The position numbers and the translations under genes were made by a program. The notes below the pieces were generated by a model. That model made no database searches. It saw nothing but the letters and a program-made list of their open reading frames with translations, and was not told the DNA's origin. DNA of 6,763 nt from Deltaproteobacteria bacterium (lineage in GTDB: Bacteria; Desulfobacterota; BSN033; UBA1163), in the NCBI GenBank assembly GCA_016875155.1, contig VGSD01000160.1, positions 1 to 6,763 of the forward strand, given 5' to 3'. Shown piece after piece: positions 879-6,614 of this stretch (its first letter is position 1; each line of letters begins with the position of its first letter).

Positions 879-2135
879 TCAAGTCTCTAACAGAATAAGG
901 TCCGGGTCTTCGAGTCGTGATATGACTGTATTGAGGAATCGAGCTCCTTCCCCACCATCCACGACTCGATGGTCAAAGGAGAGAGCCAGGCTGAGAATTT
1001 TTCGAACGACCAACTTACCACTTTTCACCACCGATGTATCTTTAATTTTTCCCACGCCCAGGATGGCCACCTCAGGATAGTTGATGATCGGAGTGGCATA
1101 AATTCCTCCTAACGCCCCGTAGTTGGAGATGGTAAAAGTCCCTCCTTTCAGGTCAGCCAGATCAATCGTACGATTCCTTGCCTTCTCAACCAACTTGGTT
1201 AATTCATCCGCTATTTGAAGGATGGACTTGTCCTTTGCATTCTTAACCACAGGGACCATCAAGCCCTCGGGAGTATCTGTGGCAACGCCAATATTAAAAT
1301 ACTTTTTCAGAATGATCTCTTCGTTTTCATCATCCAATGAGGCATTGAGATAGGGGTGCTCCATCAAACCCGCAATCACCGCTTTGATGATGAAGGGAAG
1401 AATGGTCAATTTGACCCCCTTCTTCTCCGCCGCCTTTTTCTCTTTCTCTCTGATTTTCCACAATGCGGTCACATCCGCCTCATCCATGGCAGTCACATGT
1501 GGAGCCGTATATTTTGACTTGACCATGGCCTTGGCAATAGATCGCCGTACTCCCCGCAATGGAATACGGTCTACATATCCATAGAGATCATACTTTTTAA
1601 CCTTGGTGATTTTCTTTTCCGGTTCTAGAGGTTTTTCTTTACCCTCTGCAATTTGCCTCACATCTTTTTCCACAACCCGTCCTTCGGGCCCGCTTCCTTT
1701 TACCTTATTGATATCAACCCCCAGTTCTTTTGCCAGCCCTCTTACTGCAGGGGTTGCCAGGGCATGTTCACTGACAAGGACAGGTTTAACGGTTTCAACC
1801 TTTGCTTCAGGGACAGTGGGTTCTTCCGGAGCTTCTTCCAATTCACCCACCACGCCAACTGATTTAGGTTTTGCAGGTGGGGTTGCAAGGGATTCTCCTT
1901 TCTCCCCGAAAATGACGATCACCTGCCCTACCTTAACAATCTCCTTCTCCTTGGCGAGTATTTTTAAGATGACCCCTGTCTTGGGAGAAGGTATCTCTGC
2001 AAGTGCTTTATCGGTCTCCACCTCAACAAGGGGTTGACCTTCTTTCACCTCATCGCCTTCTTTGACCAGCCAGCGAACGATCTCGCCTTCCGTTAACCCT
2101 TCCCCGATATCAGGAAACTTGAATTCGTAAGCCAT
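879..2135 (-). CDS. pdhC: 2-oxoacid dehydrogenase complex E2 subunit (dihydrolipoamide acyltransferase)
   Basis: This 418-residue protein is the core acyltransferase that moves the acyl group from E1 to coenzyme A through a swinging lipoyl arm. Domains in order: one lipoyl domain at 1-77, with lipoyl-lysine K43 in VEVETDKA; a Pro/Glu/Val-rich linker; a peripheral-subunit-binding domain at about 125-162 (ATPAVRGLAKELGVDI, GSGPEGRVVEKDV); a second linker; and the catalytic domain at about 188-418. The catalytic signature SFDHRVVDGG gives H389 and D393 as active-site residues, and TFTISNYGALGG is also intact. Length is normal for a single-lipoyl E2. The ATG at 2135 is chosen because it begins the lipoyl domain (AYEFKFPDIGEG); a G-rich GGGGGT lies 6-7 nt upstream as a modest ribosome site. 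It is the last gene of the minus-strand E1-alpha/E1-beta/E2 set. Pyruvate is the likeliest substrate, but branched-chain 2-oxoacids cannot be excluded from sequence alone. Confidence 0.95.
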   Translation of the reverse strand: MAYEFKFPDIGEGLTEGEIVRWLVKEGDEVKEGQPLVEVETDKALAEIPSPKTGVILKILAKEKEIVKVGQVIVIFGEKGESLATPPAKPKSVGVVGELEEAPEEPTVPEAKVETVKPVLVSEHALATPAVRGLAKELGVDINKVKGSGPEGRVVEKDVRQIAEGKEKPLEPEKKITKVKKYDLYGYVDRIPLRGVRRSIAKAMVKSKYTAPHVTAMDEADVTALWKIREKEKKAAEKKGVKLTILPFIIKAVIAGLMEHPYLNASLDDENEEIILKKYFNIGVATDTPEGLMVPVVKNAKDKSILQIADELTKLVEKARNRTIDLADLKGGTFTISNYGALGGIYATPIINYPEVAILGVGKIKDTSVVKSGKLVVRKILSLALSFDHRVVDGGEGARFLNTVISRLEDPDLILLET

Positions 2136-2152
2136 GTCATACCCCCAAGATT

Positions 2153-2210
2153 AAGGTTTAGGCTCAGGTTAAGAAACATCTATGTTTTGCTCAACCTTGG
2201 CCTTAACCTG
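2153..2210. repeat. Inverted pair of hexamer-period arrays between E1-beta and E2 genes
   Basis: The left arm (2153-2173) reads as 6-nt units AAGGTT, TAGGCT, CAGGTT; the right arm (2192-2210) as CAACCT, TGGCCT, TAACCT. The arms pair in two registers: CAGGTTAAG (2165-2173) is a perfect 9-bp complement of CTTAACCTG (2202-2210), and 2154-2170 pairs with 2193-2209 at 14 of 17 positions. The element nearly fills the 81-nt gap. There is no T-run typical of an intrinsic terminator. It could form a hairpin in the mRNA between the two cistrons, or be an inert dispersed repeat. Confidence 0.7.
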
Positions 2211-2216
2211 GATTTG

Positions 2217-3194
2217 CTAAAAACTCATCACCTTTTTTACGGCCATCACAATTCGTTTGGGATTGGGAAGATAGTAGTGCTCTGATTTCAGCAAGGGCAC
2301 GGGAATATCAAATCCTGTCACCCTTTCGATAGGCGCCTGAAGTGAGAGAAAGGCTTTTTCGTTGATAACAGCAATGATCTCCGCACCCAGGCCGCAGGTC
2401 TTTGGTGCCTCATGGACGACGACCGCTCTCCCTGTTTTTCGGACCGAGGTGATAATCGCATCTACATCCATGGGTGAGATCGTTCTGAGGTCAATGATCT
2501 CCAAAGCGATTTTATCACCTTTCAATTCCTCGGCCGCATTTAAAACCTCTCTCACCATTGCTCCCCAGGCAATGACAGTCGCATCCTTGCCTTCCTGAAC
2601 CAATCTCGCCTTACCCAAGGGAATGGTATAATCTCCTTCTGAAACATCCTCTCGAATGGCTCTATAGATTCTTTTGGGCTCTAAAAAGATCACAGGATCT
2701 GGGCTTCGGATTGAAGAGAGCAGAAGCCCTTTGGCTTCATAAGGGGTCGAAGGAATCACAACTTTGATCCCTGGCGTATGGGCCAGGATCGCTTCAGGGC
2801 TCTCGGAATGATGCTCGGGTGCATGGATGCCGCCTCCATAGGGAACCCGGATGACAAATGGACAGGTGAATCTCCCTCTGGATCGGTTCCGCATCCGACC
2901 GATGTGGTTCGTGATCTGATCGAGACAGGGATAGAGAAAACCATCAAACTGAATCTCCACAACTGGCCGCAGTCCATAGAGCGCCATCCCCAATGCAGTA
3001 CCAACGATTCCTGTCTCTGCGAGAGGTGTATCAACCACCCGCTCATCACCAAACTTAGTCTGAAGCCCATCGGTTACCCGAAAGACACCACCCTCGCGAC
3101 CAACATCTTCACCTAGGACAACAATTGTTTTGTCTTTCTCCATCTCCTCCCGGAGAGCTAAATTGATTGCTTCGACCAAATTGAGTCTGGGCAT
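2217..3194 (-). CDS. pdhB: 2-oxoacid dehydrogenase E1 beta subunit
   Basis: This 325-residue protein matches the usual E1-beta length (about 325). With E1-alpha it forms the thiamine-diphosphate heterotetramer that decarboxylates the 2-oxoacid and reductively acylates the E2 lipoyl group. Visible signatures: LGEDVGREGGVFRVTDGL at 27-44; DTPLAETGIVGTALGMA at 55-71, whose E60 is the expected cofactor-activating glutamate; GGGIHAPEHHSES at 120-132, with the conserved active-site histidine region; IDLRTISPMD at 234-243, start of the C-terminal transketolase domain; and the C-terminal VTGFDIPVP and NPKRI. ATG 3194 is preceded by AAGGAAGG about 9 nt upstream. The gene sits between E1-alpha and E2 on the same strand, separated from each by gaps that carry inverted repeats. 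No residues look missing. Confidence 0.95.
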   Translation of the reverse strand: MPRLNLVEAINLALREEMEKDKTIVVLGEDVGREGGVFRVTDGLQTKFGDERVVDTPLAETGIVGTALGMALYGLRPVVEIQFDGFLYPCLDQITNHIGRMRNRSRGRFTCPFVIRVPYGGGIHAPEHHSESPEAILAHTPGIKVVIPSTPYEAKGLLLSSIRSPDPVIFLEPKRIYRAIREDVSEGDYTIPLGKARLVQEGKDATVIAWGAMVREVLNAAEELKGDKIALEIIDLRTISPMDVDAIITSVRKTGRAVVVHEAPKTCGLGAEIIAVINEKAFLSLQAPIERVTGFDIPVPLLKSEHYYLPNPKRIVMAVKKVMSF

Positions 3195-3222
3195 AGTTAA
3201 AACCTTCCTTTTATTATTCTTT

Positions 3223-3313
3223 CCTCTCCCCTGGTGGGAGAGGATTAAGGTGAGGGGGAACTAAATTTTTCTTTTCACCCCCACCCTCACCCTCCCCCAT
3301 CAAGGGGGAGGGG
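3223..3313. repeat. Purine/pyrimidine-rich inverted repeat pair between E1-alpha and E1-beta genes
   Basis: Two related elements of about 36 nt lie in opposite orientation. The first contains a perfect 8-bp hairpin, CCTCTCCC (3223-3230) with GGGAGAGG (3236-3243), loop CTGGT. The second contains a perfect 9-bp hairpin, CCCTCCCCC (3290-3298) with GGGGGAGGG (3304-3312), loop ATCAA. The inner flanks GGTGAGGG (3249-3256) and CCCTCACC (3284-3291) are also exact complements, so the whole can fold as one long stem or as two small hairpins. The element fills most of the 133-nt gap. It resembles the short C-rich palindromic repeats dispersed in many Gram-negative genomes; copy number elsewhere cannot be judged here. 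Confidence 0.75.
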
Positions 3314-3327
3314 AAGACAAAAAATAT

Positions 3328-4401
3328 TTACCCCAGTGTTCCTTTCAGGTACTCCATCTGTTCTTTTAACTGCGGTGTCATCTCTGCATAGACATATTTA
3401 AAAATATCTTCCACACTCGGAGTCGGAACCGCTTCGGCCTCTTTCACTGTTTGATCGATCTCTTCTTGAGCCTTTTCAATCACCTGTTTTTCAACCTCAT
3501 CACTCCAGAGTCCTCTTCCTTTGAGATAGAACCTCAGTCTGACCAATGGATCAAGCGCCTTCCACGGCTCGACCTCCTCTTCTCTTCGATATTTTGTAGG
3601 ATCATCGGCTGTCGTATGAGGACCGAACCGGTAGGTCACCCCCTCAATCAGGGTAGCCCCTCCTCCGGAACGGGCCTTATCAACCGCTTCCTTTGTTACC
3701 GCATAGGCAGCAAAGAGATCATTGCCATCCACTTGAATTCCATCCACCCCATAGGCAACCGCCTTCTGGGCGATCGTCTCAGAGGCGGTCTGGATCTTTC
3801 TCGGAACAGAGATGGCAAACTGGTTATTCTGGCAGAAGAAGATGGTTGGGACTTTAAAGACCCCGGCAAGATTCATCGCCTCATGAAAATCGCCCTTGGA
3901 AGTTGCGCCATCCCCAAAATAAGAAACGGTAACGATCTTATCTCCCTTAATTTTTGCCGCCCAGGCAGTTCCAACCGCATGCAAGGGATGAGTCCCAACA
4001 GGTATAGAGACAGGCATCATATTGATTCCATCCGGAGCACGGCTTCCTTCTTCATTGCCCATCCAGTAGAGATAGACCGTTTTGAGCGGGACTCCCATCA
4101 TCAGGGATGCACCGAGTTCTCTAAAAGCAGGAAAAACCCAATCCCCTTTTTGAAGAACAGAGGCGCTCCCAACCTGACAGGCTTCCTGTCCCCAGATAGG
4201 CGCATAGGTTCCCATCCTCCCTTGCCTCTGAAGCATCAAGGCTTTCTGGTCTGCCAGCCGGATGAAAACCATCTTCTGATAAAGATTAAAAATTTCCTGA
4301 TCACTCAGTGGGGACTTCACATCCGGATGTAGGGTCCCATCCGGTTTAAGAATCTGGAACATCTTTCCCTTCAAAGGATGGTAATCTTCAAACAAACTCA
4401 T
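3328..4401 (-). CDS. pdhA: 2-oxoacid (pyruvate) dehydrogenase E1 alpha subunit
   Basis: This 357-residue protein is the thiamine-diphosphate subunit that partners E1-beta. The cofactor motif is intact: GDGATSKGDFHEAMNLAG begins at 163 and ends with QNNQFAISVP (191-200), giving the GDG...NN metal/diphosphate signature. The active-site loop YRFGPHTTADDPTKYR (257-272) resembles the YG-PHT-DDPT-YR loop of Bacillus-type pyruvate dehydrogenase. The N-terminal layout (FQILKPDG, MVFIRLADQKALMLQRQGRMGTYAP) and the C-terminus also fit the Gram-positive-type E1-alpha of heterotetrameric complexes, rather than the single-chain E1 of Escherichia coli. ATG 4401 has GGGAGG 5 nt upstream. It is the first of the three dehydrogenase genes, 135 nt downstream of the thioredoxin gene. 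Substrate preference (pyruvate versus branched-chain acids) is inferred by resemblance only. Confidence 0.95.
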   Translation of the reverse strand: MSLFEDYHPLKGKMFQILKPDGTLHPDVKSPLSDQEIFNLYQKMVFIRLADQKALMLQRQGRMGTYAPIWGQEACQVGSASVLQKGDWVFPAFRELGASLMMGVPLKTVYLYWMGNEEGSRAPDGINMMPVSIPVGTHPLHAVGTAWAAKIKGDKIVTVSYFGDGATSKGDFHEAMNLAGVFKVPTIFFCQNNQFAISVPRKIQTASETIAQKAVAYGVDGIQVDGNDLFAAYAVTKEAVDKARSGGGATLIEGVTYRFGPHTTADDPTKYRREEEVEPWKALDPLVRLRFYLKGRGLWSDEVEKQVIEKAQEEIDQTVKEAEAVPTPSVEDIFKYVYAEMTPQLKEQMEYLKGTLG

Positions 4402-4415
4402 CAGAACCTCCCAAA

Positions 4416-4538
4416 TGGAATGATGGAATATTGGAATACTGGAATAATGGATTGAACACTTTGAAGCTGAGGCCTTAACCTTCTATTTTCTGATTAACCC
4501 ATTTTTCCATTCTTCCATGATTCCACTATTCCGGTATT
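4416..4538. repeat. Inverted pair of 8-nt-period arrays upstream of the E1-alpha gene
   Basis: The left array (4416-4455) has five consecutive 8-nt units beginning TGGAAT (TGGAATGA, TGGAATAT, TGGAATAC, TGGAATAA, then TGGATTGA). The right array (4499-4538) has five units in the opposite sense (CCATTTTT, CCATTCTT, CCATGATT, CCACTATT, CCGGTATT). Together they can fold as a long imperfect stem around 4456-4498. The loop carries GGCCTTAACCT (4471-4481), an 11-mer also present at 2199-2209 in the E1-beta/E2 gap. The right array overlaps the stop codon of the thioredoxin gene (TTA at 4537-4539 on the plus strand). It is neither a CRISPR array (no spacers of suitable length) nor a terminator (no T-run). 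Confidence 0.8.
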
Positions 4539-4809
4539 ATTCTAGCGCCCATTTCTTCAACCGCTCGTAATCTGCAGACCCGCAGATCCATTTGCCGGTC
4601 CTTTTGTTGAAAAAGAACGGTACGCCTCCGCAATATCCCTTATCATACTCTCTCATCAGTTTGGCATTGGCCTCGTTGTGCCAGACTTCCAGTTTTGCGA
4701 CCTTAACTCCTTCTTCATCCTCTAACCTCTCCACGAGAGGTTCTACATGTTGGCAGTGGGGTCACTCCGCACCGGTAAACTCTAAAAGGTAAAACTCCTC
4801 TTTTGTCAT
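4537..4809 (-). CDS. Thioredoxin-like selenoprotein, UPHC redox motif with in-frame TGA
   Basis: Reading from ATG 4809 gives 90 residues if TGA at 4764-4762 (codon 16) is read as selenocysteine. The N-terminus MTKEEFYLLEFTGAE is a thioredoxin-type beta strand running into U16-P17-H18-C19, so the TGA occupies exactly the first cysteine of a CPHC motif. The frame then continues without fault: helix HVEPLVERLEDEEG, strand VKVAKLEVWH, and GGVPFFF with the expected cis-proline at P64; it ends at TAA 4539-4537. Two further cysteines are C60, just before that loop, and C76 (WICG). AGGAGG lies 7 nt upstream of ATG 4809. The protein would be a cytosolic thiol-disulfide oxidoreductase or peroxide-linked reductant; partner unknown. 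A plain nonsense mutation or sequencing error at TGC/TGT is the main alternative, but the hairpin at 4724-4742 argues against it. The gene lies between the prenyltransferase and E1-alpha genes on the same strand. Confidence 0.85.
4724..4742 (-). promoter_or_regulatory. Candidate bacterial SECIS hairpin following the in-frame TGA
   Basis: In the mRNA sense, AACCUCUC pairs perfectly with GAGAGGUU (8 bp) around a GUG loop. The stem begins 19 nt after the UGA and the loop lies 27 nt after it. Bacterial SECIS elements are known to sit inside the coding region just after the UGA, with a small apical loop carrying G near its 5' side, roughly 16-37 nt downstream; this hairpin meets those rules. It would recruit SelB with Sec-tRNA to recode the UGA. 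Whether the host has selA, selB, selC and selD cannot be seen here. Confidence 0.75.
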
Positions 4810-4816
4810 CAGGCGT

Positions 4817-4822
4817 CCTCCT
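4817..4822 (-). promoter_or_regulatory. Ribosome binding site that fixes the selenothioredoxin start
   Basis: AGGAGG on the minus strand lies 7 nt before ATG 4809. No comparable site precedes the internal GTG at 4734. This supports translation beginning upstream of the in-frame TGA and argues that the TGA is read through. Confidence 0.8.
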
Positions 4823-4838
4823 CTCTTCCTAAATCTAT

Positions 4839-4897
4839 CAGGGCTAAAGCCCTGAGTTACTGCTTACAAAATATTGTAACTCAACCCTTCAGGGTTG
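4839..4897. repeat. REP-like twin-hairpin palindrome overlapping the prenyltransferase 3' end
   Basis: The left half has hairpin CAGGGC (4839-4844), loop TAAA, GCCCTG (4849-4854), then AGTTAC (4855-4860). The right half is the same design inverted: GTAACT (4876-4881), then hairpin CAACCC (4882-4887), loop TTCA, GGGTTG (4892-4897). AGTTAC and GTAACT pair with each other around a 15-nt centre. Read in the same orientation, the two 6-bp stems differ at three positions, all with compensating changes that keep pairing. The right half overlaps the last codons (TLKG) and the TGA stop (4883-4881) of the prenyltransferase gene. There is no T-run, so an intrinsic terminator is unlikely. Confidence 0.8.
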
Positions 4898-5906
4898 GCG
4901 AGAAAATTGCTCTCCTGATCAACGTTGCGACAGGAAAATAGAGGATGATTAACACAATTAAAGGTAAAAAAGAGGAGATTAAGGCCTCCTTTCTAAAGCC
5001 GACGATGGTATAGGCGATGATCAGCAGGATTGCCGTAATATTGTGGGTGCAGATCATTCCTAAATTAGCGGGTGCCATTATAACGGAATCCTGATAGTGC
5101 TTTCTTAAAATGCAGATCGTTTTATAGGCTATGGGAAGAGTCAGCAGAGAGATCAGCCCGATGACGGGAATTTTCCCCAAAAGGATGCCCATCAGAATAG
5201 CACCATAAGCAGAAAGAAGGCTCAGGATAAACAGTTTTACTCCTGCCTCTCTTCCGAAGCGTGCGACTAAGTTCATTTTCCCGGCTTTTCTGTCTTCAAG
5301 GTAATCAGGAATCTCATTGATCGTAATCATCGAAAAGAGCATGATTCCAAAGGGAAACGTTCCCCAGAAGGCTTCCCATGAGAGGTTCTGCGTCTGGACA
5401 TAGTAAGCCCCAAGGCCTATCCCCGGACCAAAACAAAGAAGTTGTGTAATCTCCCCAAGCCCCCTGTAACCGAATCGAATCGGAGGGGCCGTATAAAAGA
5501 AAGCGCAGAAAAAGCCGAACGCTAACAGGAAGAGAACAAAAGATCCTCTCAAAATTCCTAAAACGATCCCGATCCCAATGGCAATGACATAGAAACTCGA
5601 AAAGACATTTCGCATCTGGCTAGGACTGATCAACCCCTTTGAAAGGGTGCCGCTCCCTCCGGCATAAGGATTCCCGTGTGTGTCCAAAACATCAACCAGA
5701 TGTCGGAAGTCGTAATAGTCATCCGTCATATTGAGGGCCAGATGATTGAGGATGAGGCCCAGCATCACCAGAAGGAAGTATCCTGCATGGAACTGGCCAT
5801 CGTAGGTCCAGGCAATCATCCCTCCCAAAATCCCTGGCATGAAACTGGCTGAGGCATAGTGAAACCGGAAAGCCTTCCACCACACCTGGAAAGAATTGGA
5901 ATTCAT
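4881..5906 (-). CDS. UbiA-family prenyltransferase (MenA-like)
   Basis: This 341-residue polytopic membrane protein has about eight or nine hydrophobic segments. UbiA enzymes attach a polyprenyl chain to an aromatic acceptor, using two Asp-rich Mg-diphosphate motifs. The first is N59-M-T-D-D-Y-Y-D66, followed by the NPYAGGSGTLSKGLIS region; the second is D201-Y-L-E-D205 followed by RKAGK. The spacing and the DxxxDRKAGK form resemble MenA (dihydroxynaphthoate prenyltransferase) more than UbiA proper, suggesting menaquinone or another prenylated lipid, but the acceptor cannot be read from sequence. ATG 5906 lies 2 nt after the DoxX-family stop, so translation is probably coupled; only a weak A/G-rich stretch precedes it. 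The last codons (TLKG, stop TGA) fall inside the palindromic element at 4839-4897, so the C-terminal end may have been altered when that repeat arrived. Confidence 0.9.
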   Translation of the reverse strand: MNSNSFQVWWKAFRFHYASASFMPGILGGMIAWTYDGQFHAGYFLLVMLGLILNHLALNMTDDYYDFRHLVDVLDTHGNPYAGGSGTLSKGLISPSQMRNVFSSFYVIAIGIGIVLGILRGSFVLFLLAFGFFCAFFYTAPPIRFGYRGLGEITQLLCFGPGIGLGAYYVQTQNLSWEAFWGTFPFGIMLFSMITINEIPDYLEDRKAGKMNLVARFGREAGVKLFILSLLSAYGAILMGILLGKIPVIGLISLLTLPIAYKTICILRKHYQDSVIMAPANLGMICTHNITAILLIIAYTIVGFRKEALISSFLPLIVLIILYFPVATLIRRAIFSPTLKG

Positions 5907-5908
5907 AA

Positions 5909-6310
5909 TCAGGTCTTCTTTCCCCTTAAGAAATAATCGAGACTCAGTCGCCCCGGCCCGACAGCAAAGAGGAGAAGACAGCCTCCAAACATGCTCACAT
6001 TCTTCATGAACATGATCATCTGGATGCGGTCGCTGAAATCAGTATGAAAGATCAAGGTGGTTGGAATCAAAAAAATGAGGATCAGAAAAGCTCCAAACCG
6101 TGTGAAATACCCCAGGATGATGCTAATACTCCCCACCAGCAGAAAGACGATGGCACCGAAGAGAAAAAAACTGGTGTAGGGGATGCCGAATTTGGCCATG
6201 TATTGGGCGGTTCCCTCAAAGTTTCCGATCTTCCCGATTCCCGAATTGAGAAAGATGAGAACCAGAAGAATCCTGCCAATTAAACCGCAAAAGGCTTTCA
6301 ACCATTCCAT
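5909..6310 (-). CDS. DoxX-family four-helix membrane protein
   Basis: This 133-residue protein has four hydrophobic segments at about 5-23, 45-67, 72-90 and 104-118, the usual DoxX size and layout. Family hallmarks visible are GRILLVLIFLNSGIGKI in helix 1, followed by AQYMAKFGIP, and a short basic tail. DoxX proteins are inner-membrane proteins of mostly undefined role, some linked to quinone-dependent sulfur oxidation or to oxidative-stress complexes with a thiol protein. The start is placed at ATG 6310 because AGGAGG (6321-6316) lies 5 nt upstream; a longer reading from TTG 6334 or ATG 6331 would place that site inside the gene and add a charged segment before helix 1. It is the first gene of the minus-strand run and lies 2 nt before the prenyltransferase gene, so the two are very probably co-transcribed. 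Confidence 0.88.
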   Translation of the reverse strand: MEWLKAFCGLIGRILLVLIFLNSGIGKIGNFEGTAQYMAKFGIPYTSFFLFGAIVFLLVGSISIILGYFTRFGAFLILIFLIPTTLIFHTDFSDRIQMIMFMKNVSMFGGCLLLFAVGPGRLSLDYFLRGKKT

Positions 6311-6315
6311 ATTCT

Positions 6316-6321
6316 CCTCCT
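6316..6321 (-). promoter_or_regulatory. Ribosome binding site that fixes the DoxX-family start
   Basis: AGGAGG on the minus strand lies 5 nt before ATG 6310. It favours this start over TTG 6334 and ATG 6331, which have no comparable site upstream. Confidence 0.75.
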
Positions 6322-6431
6322 TTCCCTCCATCAATGTAACCCTGAAACTGCTTCCTCACCTTATAATCAAGGGGCTGATTCAACCAGGTGTCTTATTATA
6401 TTTTATACCATAATTTTCCCCCCCGTTCACC

Positions 6432-6482: not shown

Positions 6483-6614
6483 ATGATGAAAAAAAATGAT
6501 AAAAAAACCAGGATGGAAAAAACAAAAGGGACAACTCCTTCTATGTCGGATATCTGCTGGTATGAGGTATCCTACTATGATCCCTGCCGTGGTGAGGTTT
6601 GCTGCTGCTGTTAA
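6483..6614 (+). CDS. 43-residue cysteine-rich peptide, unknown function
   Basis: The frame from ATG 6483 to TAA 6612-6614 encodes 43 residues. The first 20 (MMKKNDKKTRMEKTKGTTPS) are strongly basic and polar; the last 23 are aromatic, acidic and cysteine-rich: SDICWYEVSYYDPC followed by RGEVCCCC, with cysteines at 25, 35, 40, 41, 42 and 43. There is no signal peptide or membrane segment. The perfect AGGAGGTG site and a plausible promoter support expression. The split into a charged leader and a Cys-rich tail recalls precursors of ribosomally made, modified peptides, or a small metal- or thiol-binding protein, but I recognise no family and no maturation enzyme is visible. The gene is alone on its strand, diverges from the DoxX-family gene and converges on the gene at the right edge, 29 nt away. 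The codons are ordinary apart from the TGC-TGC-TGC-TGT end. Confidence 0.6.
   Translation: MMKKNDKKTRMEKTKGTTPSMSDICWYEVSYYDPCRGEVCCCC

Follow-up and report, generated by a model that had tools for sequence, protein, structure and literature searches.

The window analyzed here, a 6,763-nucleotide stretch of contig VGSD01000160.1 from a Deltaproteobacteria bacterium, carries along its minus strand, in this order, genes for a DoxX-family membrane protein, a UbiA-type prenyltransferase, a small thioredoxin, and the E1α, E1β, and E2 components of a pyruvate dehydrogenase (PDH) (Table 1). No E3 gene was found among the ORFs of the window, and E2 occupies the same position in the gene order of relatives.

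Table 1. Features of the window and the evidence for each
Feature	Position	Strand	Evidence
E2 acyltransferase, lipoyl and E3/E1-binding domains	879..2135	minus	PF00198 305.8, PF00364 84.0, PF02817 58.7 bits
Pyruvate dehydrogenase E1β, transketolase-type	2217..3194	minus	PF02779 155.5, PF02780 138.2 bits; order kept in relatives
Pyruvate dehydrogenase E1α	3328..4401	minus	TIGR03181 488 bits, cut-off 411.35
Thioredoxin-like gene, predicted selenoprotein, 90 residues	4537..4809	minus	UxxC 16-19, C60, C76, cis-Pro P64; PF00085
Bacterial SECIS-like hairpin	4724..4742	minus	8-bp stem, 3-nt loop GUG, loop 27 nt after UGA
Hairpin core CCUCUC/GAGAGG, 6 bp	4726..4740	minus	part of the SECIS-like hairpin
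UGA codon 16, predicted to be read as selenocysteine	4762..4764	minus	TGA conserved in 12/12 relatives, distant ones Cys
AGGAGG ribosome-binding motif	4817..4822	minus	sequence; 7 bases upstream of ATG 4809
UbiA-family (MenA-like) prenyltransferase	4881..5906	minus	upstream of thioredoxin
DoxX-family membrane protein	5909..6334	minus	PF07681 74.2 bits

Read through its single TGA, at codon 16, the thioredoxin gene yields 90 residues with PHC directly after the TGA, which bears out the preliminary description of a frame from ATG 4809 broken only at that codon. The two additional cysteines and the cis-Pro loop pointed out there are also present, and C60, C76, and P64 are identical in all 35 rows of our alignment, in which F11, G13, E15, C19, E32, E41, W43, H44, N48, F65, N68, G77, W87, and A88 are likewise invariant. 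The product matches PF00085 with 25.0 bits (cut-off 23.5), and its AlphaFold model (pLDDT 88.2), arranged as β-α-β-α-β-β-α, predicts a thioredoxin fold whose best structural matches are mostly thioredoxins; a PDB sequence search gave weak matches only, among them thioredoxins, PDI, and DsbA. By this predicted fold, the CxxC-type site, and the cis-Pro, the protein belongs to the thioredoxin superfamily PF00085. It does not qualify as TrxA (TIGR01068, 16.6 bits against a cut-off of 96.8), and its best NCBIfam match by E-value, the small archaeal thioredoxins of the MJ0307 type (TIGR00411), which are similarly short, scores 21.4 bits, the cut-off being 92.75. The nine NCBIfam 20.0 families found at E ≤ 0.1 include none of the Sec-family models named in the table of PMC13188914, as far as the accessible part of that paper extends.

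Decoding of the in-frame UGA

The TGA lies at the identical codon, with no further stop, in all 12 relatives for which DNA was retrieved (L001-L011 and L029, 81 to 97% identity), and more distant relatives have TGC or TGT in its place. Scanning a genome collection gave 17 loci with a relative of the window thioredoxin: 11 with the TGA (L001-L011; 83 to 97% identical; Deltaproteobacteria, Syntrophaceae, and Thermodesulfobacteriota) and 6 coding for Cys by TGC or TGT (L012-L017; archaea and one Paceibacter). The gene was present in 13 of the 23 genomes searched from the class of G001, 12 with one TGA, among them an added genome (G015, 81% identity), and 1 stop-free (G025). It was found in 15 genomes of a 375-genome phylum sample, where 9 have the TGA and 6 have none and carry Cys codons, and in 50 of 371 genomes from the phylum of G029, a Woesearchaeota record, with a stop in none. 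Cys occupies the site in two close homologues known from protein records alone, P0002 (92% identical) and P0003 (88%). At position 16, homologues thus carry either Cys or the TGA, one of the patterns that the preliminary description had proposed to look for, and the scattered stops of a decaying pseudogene are absent from the 12 relatives. Residues 5 to 15, ahead of the TGA, are conserved in the TGA relatives, as are the residues past it, while outside the hairpin described below 48% of the synonymous codon comparisons among the 13 TGA genes differ.

According to the accessible part of PMC13188914, a bacterial SECIS element has an upper stem of 4 to 16 bp and a loop of 3 to 9 nt located 16 to 37 nt from the UGA, with a G within the first two loop positions and a minimum free energy of −7.5 or lower. 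The hairpin of the window agrees with these rules (8 bp, GUG, 27 nt), its stem alone reaching −9.5 kcal/mol. All 13 TGA genes can form a core stem, 6 bp long except in L006 (5 bp), with a G-first loop, and in all but L007 this core belongs to the minimum-energy structure calculated for the 45 nt past the UGA. Since the 6-bp core alone gives only −6.9 kcal/mol in most TGA genes, the energy rule requires a longer stem. In the same register, four of seven Cys homologues have no stem and the other three have weaker ones (L015, −2.9; L016, −0.9; L030, −3.0 kcal/mol). Among the 13 genes, the synonymous-pair difference is 0.065 in the five hairpin codons versus 0.479 elsewhere, the lowest of 81 five-codon windows. 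Covariation is thin, with two pairs changed in one sequence each (a compensatory C-G to U-A change in L004 and a U-G in L006), and 15 to 37 of 500 column shuffles, depending on which of five measures is used, match the observed pairing and covariation. Because 188 of 2,000 synonymous shuffles of the window gene satisfy the bSECIS rule as we coded it, the conservation across genes, not any single hairpin, carries the argument for a SECIS element, and the window hairpin is weak evidence by itself.

The machinery for selenocysteine (Sec) insertion was sought in the first 11 TGA genomes identified and in two Cys genomes (G012 and G013), a set to which G015 does not belong. SelA was detected in all 11 TGA genomes and in neither Cys genome. 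Among the TGA genomes, SelB exceeded its cut-off in 10 (the exception being G005), tRNA-Sec scored more than 76 bits in 9 (G008 was recovered only at the 47-bit cut-off, and G006 fell below it), and SelD exceeded its cut-off in 9 (the exceptions being G004 and G010). Each SelD match over the cut-off (G001-G003, G005-G009, and G011) contains one in-frame TGA, for which reason SelD is itself probably a selenoprotein in those nine genomes.

A conserved in-frame UGA at the position of a redox-active Cys is the mark of a bacterial selenoprotein. Together with the hairpin and the machinery in relatives, it supports the selenocysteine reading put forward in the preliminary description, and we consider that codon 16 almost certainly encodes Sec. 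A nonsense mutation, leaving a thioredoxin pseudogene or a shorter protein of 65 to 69 residues that starts after the TGA, is very improbable. It would account for the short homologues, as 21 of the 120 listed (of 706 found; the length statistics of the family rest on those listed) have 66 to 72 residues and start near residue 22, one such record standing for 863 member sequences. Such stumps are nevertheless expected because gene callers stop at TGA, and we rejected this explanation since the same catalytic codon is TGA in every relative with DNA, residues 5 to 15 are kept despite frequent synonymous change, and a constrained hairpin 3' of the TGA is accompanied by Sec machinery. Decoding of the UGA as Cys or Trp, through ordinary suppression or an altered genetic code, is scarcely credible and was also rejected: Cys does occupy the site in homologues, yet most relatives have SelA, SelB, and tRNA-Sec, five neighboring ORFs of the window are normal under table 11, and the hairpin would be left without explanation.

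The gene therefore appears to be the selenium form of a thioredoxin family that otherwise has Cys in the lineages seen, and E-C-x-x-C occurs in 99 of the 100 sequences of at least 80 residues among the listed homologues and the query. A thioredoxin tree, poorly resolved on 87 columns, groups all 13 Sec proteins, 20 of the 21 short ones, and 3 Cys rows, of which L013 is a doubtful member, in one set (SH-aLRT 81); it was built from full-length proteins P0002-P0030 and all 21 short ones, omits L040, L046, L051, L057, and L059, and has wrongly trimmed rows for L015 and L016. Because gene callers cut the protein at the TGA, this selenoprotein subfamily is being missed.

Sec-containing thioredoxins (Trx, PF00085, UxxC) are an established kind, as stated in Table 1 of PMC13188914 and in PMC9312934, and occur in Geobacter, Anaeromyxobacter, and Treponema (PMC1794560), according to the accessible parts of these papers. 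The window protein resembles them in its thioredoxin fold, its UxxC with Sec first, and its origin in anaerobic Deltaproteobacteria. It differs from them, in a comparison made with their descriptions rather than their sequences, by the motif E-U-P-H-C, the invariant C60 and C76, the linkage to E1α, and by not being TrxA. The literature that we searched, in which subscription papers were mostly outside coverage, yielded no description of this subfamily or of its link to PDH.

Pyruvate dehydrogenase linkage and the distribution of E3

The preliminary description had mentioned the PDH cluster as background to the thioredoxin; the adjacency stands, and it became the main clue to function. In tblastn searches with the window proteins, E1α was found downstream of the thioredoxin in 12 of 12 TGA relatives, as in the window, and it lies within about 1 kb of the thioredoxin in five of the seven Cys loci first seen (L012, L015, L016, L017, and L030), with no match near the thioredoxin in L013 and L014. 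Fourteen of the 15 thioredoxin loci in the phylum sample have E1α in their flanking sequence. All 12 TGA relatives have UbiA upstream of the thioredoxin; in the Cys loci searched, tblastn gave no UbiA match. LipA lies between the thioredoxin and E1α in L015 and L016 (over its cut-off in L015), and in L017 E1α and E1β are separated by an LplA-like gene that scores below the equivalog cut-off. Of 30 archaeal thioredoxin loci examined with about 1.5 kb of flank on either side, 13 have LipA or an LplA-like gene next to the thioredoxin and 3 (L034, L052, and L053) have thioredoxin reductase there. In the flanks of L001-L011 and L029, tblastn at 1e-5 found neither LipA nor LplA. As the family stands beside E1α in both bacteria and archaea, we regard the thioredoxin as a likely working partner of lipoyl-dependent PDH.

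We examined how E3 is distributed around E1α genes in the archaeal set (the 371 genomes from the phylum of G029), where E3 was scored on at most the four best candidates per genome, and in a second set of 31 genomes; most genomes analyzed are metagenome-assembled. The archaeal set contains the thioredoxin in 50 genomes, E1_dh in 75 (78 genes), E3 over its cut-off in 30, and some match to the E3 model at 1e-40 in 105. E1_dh is present in 43 of the 50 thioredoxin genomes, versus about 10 expected. With neighbor distances of our own choosing (thioredoxin within 6 kb and E3 within 8 kb of E1α), the 78 archaeal-set E1α genes comprise 40 with thioredoxin only, 13 with E3 only, 25 with neither, and none with both (Fisher 2.5e-5), E3 being recorded on contigs that also carry E1α. 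The 13 include two doubtful neighbors (G245 and G253; encoded on the other strand at a distance of about 5 kb and scoring below the cut-off), a contig-end fragment (G374), and a match scoring 312.6 (G062). In the second set, 45 E1α genes divide into 17 with thioredoxin only, 21 with E3 only, 7 with neither, and none with both (Fisher 3.2e-7). These represent 45 of 49 E1 matches; the other four are archaeal (two from G012, one each from G027 and G028), three of them being thioredoxin-linked with no nearby E3 and one unlinked. Contig ends will conceal some neighbors, and these p-values, like those that follow, ignore kinship.

At the level of whole genomes, E3 exceeds its cut-off in 6 of the 43 genomes with thioredoxin and E1 versus 14 of the 32 with E1 only (p 0.007), and any E3-model match at 1e-40 occurs in 19 of 43 versus 23 of 32 (p 0.02); the archaeal matches below the cut-off, which make up most of the 19, could be divergent E3s. 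Among the 12 TGA genomes, 11 have E3 over the cut-off elsewhere in the genome and G002 has none in its contigs, so that an E3 from elsewhere could serve this PDH complex in those 11.

An E1 tree of 101 rows (the window, 60 other thioredoxin-linked, 33 E3-linked, and 7 unlinked rows, the E3-linked ones being the 13 archaeal and 20 of the 21 from the second set) places all 61 thioredoxin-linked rows in one clade of 76 (support 100/100, in a bootstrap that had not settled). This clade also holds 11 archaeal E3-linked and 4 unlinked rows; the remaining 22 E3-linked rows fall elsewhere in the tree. E3-linked and thioredoxin-linked E1α genes of the Desulfobacterota set fall into different E1 clades; because the contrast in that second set lies between two E1 types, the exclusion there may be a single old operon difference. 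In the archaeal part, the E3-linked rows fall into about six groups, which mostly sit on an unresolved fork; only the two doubtful neighbors, G245 and G253, are firmly placed within a thioredoxin group. The most parsimonious history on the tree takes 6 changes between thioredoxin and E3, and the well-supported branches alone require no fewer than 3 changes of the E3 label. Repeated replacement is suggested rather than demonstrated by this tree.

Some genomes with the thioredoxin have no clear E3. In the archaeal G027, G028, and G029, which have thioredoxin and PDH, the best E3-model scores are 67, 42, and 53 bits, and no E3 match was found at 1e-60 in G505, G605, and G756. Two genomes with thioredoxin and E1 are single contigs of about their listed sizes, G605 (3.28 Mb; listed, 3.3 Mb) and G073 (0.74 Mb; listed, 0.7 Mb), and both lack an E3 match at the search thresholds used. 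The cluster of G073 is composed of thioredoxin reductase, thioredoxin, E1α, an LplA-like gene, E1β, an unidentified ORF, and E2, with the reductase (TIGR01292, 346 bits; cut-off 343.45) divergent to the thioredoxin; an LplA-like gene also lies inside the cluster at L177, as in L017. The E2s of the window, L001, L012, L015, L017, and L177 keep PF02817, three of the PF02817-bearing E2s coming from genomes without a clear E3. This retention does not decide whether E3 is used, because the domain can hold E1 as well as E3. A further arrangement, consisting of thioredoxin, E1α, E1β, and a PfpI/DJ-1 protein, was observed in L176 of G605 (5905-8919) and L178 of G505 (5920-9101); no E2 was found within 17 and 15 kb, respectively, around these clusters.

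Possible roles of the thioredoxin

The lipoyl groups of E2 end each turnover as dihydrolipoyl and are normally reoxidized by E3, a flavoprotein much larger than the thioredoxin and of another fold. Because the family travels with PDH clusters that have no visible E3 gene, it may share the job of E3. In the mechanism that we propose, UGA codon 16 would be read as Sec under the direction of the SECIS hairpin just downstream, and the selenolate/Cys pair of the UxxC motif would take electrons from dihydrolipoyl-E2 by thiol-disulfide exchange, a reaction that Sec would accelerate. The electrons would then be handed to thioredoxin reductase or to another acceptor in this lineage, so that the thioredoxin would offer an alternative to E3 or stand in for it. 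Speculatively, the presence of UbiA (MenA-like) and DoxX genes at the locus might hint at a membrane quinone route, and C60 and C76 may form a second disulfide or a metal site. Taken together, Sec at position 16, the partnership with PDH, and some form of electron exchange with E2 seem probable to us, a judgment that draws on sequence for the conserved UGA, the hairpin, the Sec machinery of relatives, the E1α linkage, and the lack of clusters with both thioredoxin and E3, and on a model for the fold.

In a stronger form of the proposal, a dedicated thioredoxin, with Cys in archaea and some bacteria and Sec here, might reoxidize the lipoyl groups of PDH; we advance this tentatively, and replacement of E3 in some members of the family is possible rather than probable. 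E3 (TIGR01350) stands near E1α genes that have no nearby thioredoxin, and vice versa, as would suit two proteins with the same net job, yet unlike E3 the thioredoxin would need a second partner. This dihydrolipoyl model does not predict the E2-free clusters of G605 and G505. The AhpD and Ohr systems are comparable in that a thiol protein receives electrons from a lipoylated protein, as proposed here; AhpD and Ohr have other folds than thioredoxin and, unlike the window protein, peroxidase roles. That lipoylated proteins can reduce AhpD and Ohr is described in the accessible part of PMC8945050. No account of an E3-less or thioredoxin-linked PDH was found in the literature covered, and the accessible parts of PMC12071522 and PMC10936187 added nothing on either.

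The exchange of electrons between lipoylated proteins and AhpD or Ohr would also fit a thioredoxin that protects or repairs PDH while an E3 encoded elsewhere performs the normal oxidation, which we consider rather unlikely. Such a role would consist in the reduction of thiyl radicals or mixed disulfides on the lipoyl groups or the maintenance of E1 and E2 thiols. The E3 found elsewhere in nearly all TGA genomes and the PF02817 domain kept in E2 speak for protection, but it explains neither why a nearby E3 and the thioredoxin did not occur together in either set nor why genomes with E1 and thioredoxin, two of them single contigs, have no E3 match. An improbable alternative is that the thioredoxin serves lipoylation by reducing lipoate, LipA, or an LplA-like ligase that lipoylates E2; the LipA and LplA-like genes adjacent in archaeal loci, including LipA in L015 and L016 and the LplA-like genes inside the L017 and L177 clusters, agree with this, whereas tblastn detected neither gene in the flanks of the TGA loci, and the E3 pattern is not predicted.

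Whichever role applies, the family marks PDH clusters in which a thioredoxin is present and a nearby E3 gene is absent. Should E3 be replaceable, as we tentatively propose, this would account for pyruvate oxidation in genomes that have E1 (as well as E2 in G073 and G029) and in which no E3 was detected. A central step of carbon metabolism would then be coupled straight to a thiol carrier, here a selenol, and pyruvate oxidation would feed that carrier rather than give NADH directly.

Other elements of the locus

A strong GC-rich inverted repeat lies between E1β and E1α, at about 3209-3323, and L004 has a sequence resembling it ahead of its thioredoxin gene. When the window was searched permissively against Rfam, all matches fell below the family cut-offs, and the microRNA matches to this repeat, being far below cut-off, were taken as chance. 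A palindromic, repeat-like element at about 4836-4900 (CTGAAGGGTTGAGTTAC ... GTAACTCAGGGCTTTAGCCCTGA), which resembles a small mobile hairpin element, recurs in the corresponding position in L005 and, with small differences, in L010, and is missing in several other relatives.

A Cys-rich ORF of 43 codons (window 6483-6614, plus strand) ends in CCCC and has no Pfam match. It has relatives in five loci, L001 (2202-2324), L002, L003, L006, and L008, of which those in L001 and L006 end in Cys-Cys-TGA, where the TGA may be a plain stop or a further Sec codon. The right end of the window encodes on the minus strand what looks like the C terminus of a citrate synthase, and in L001 a citrate synthase and subunits of the aconitase/isopropylmalate-dehydratase type (992-4434) lie upstream of DoxX.
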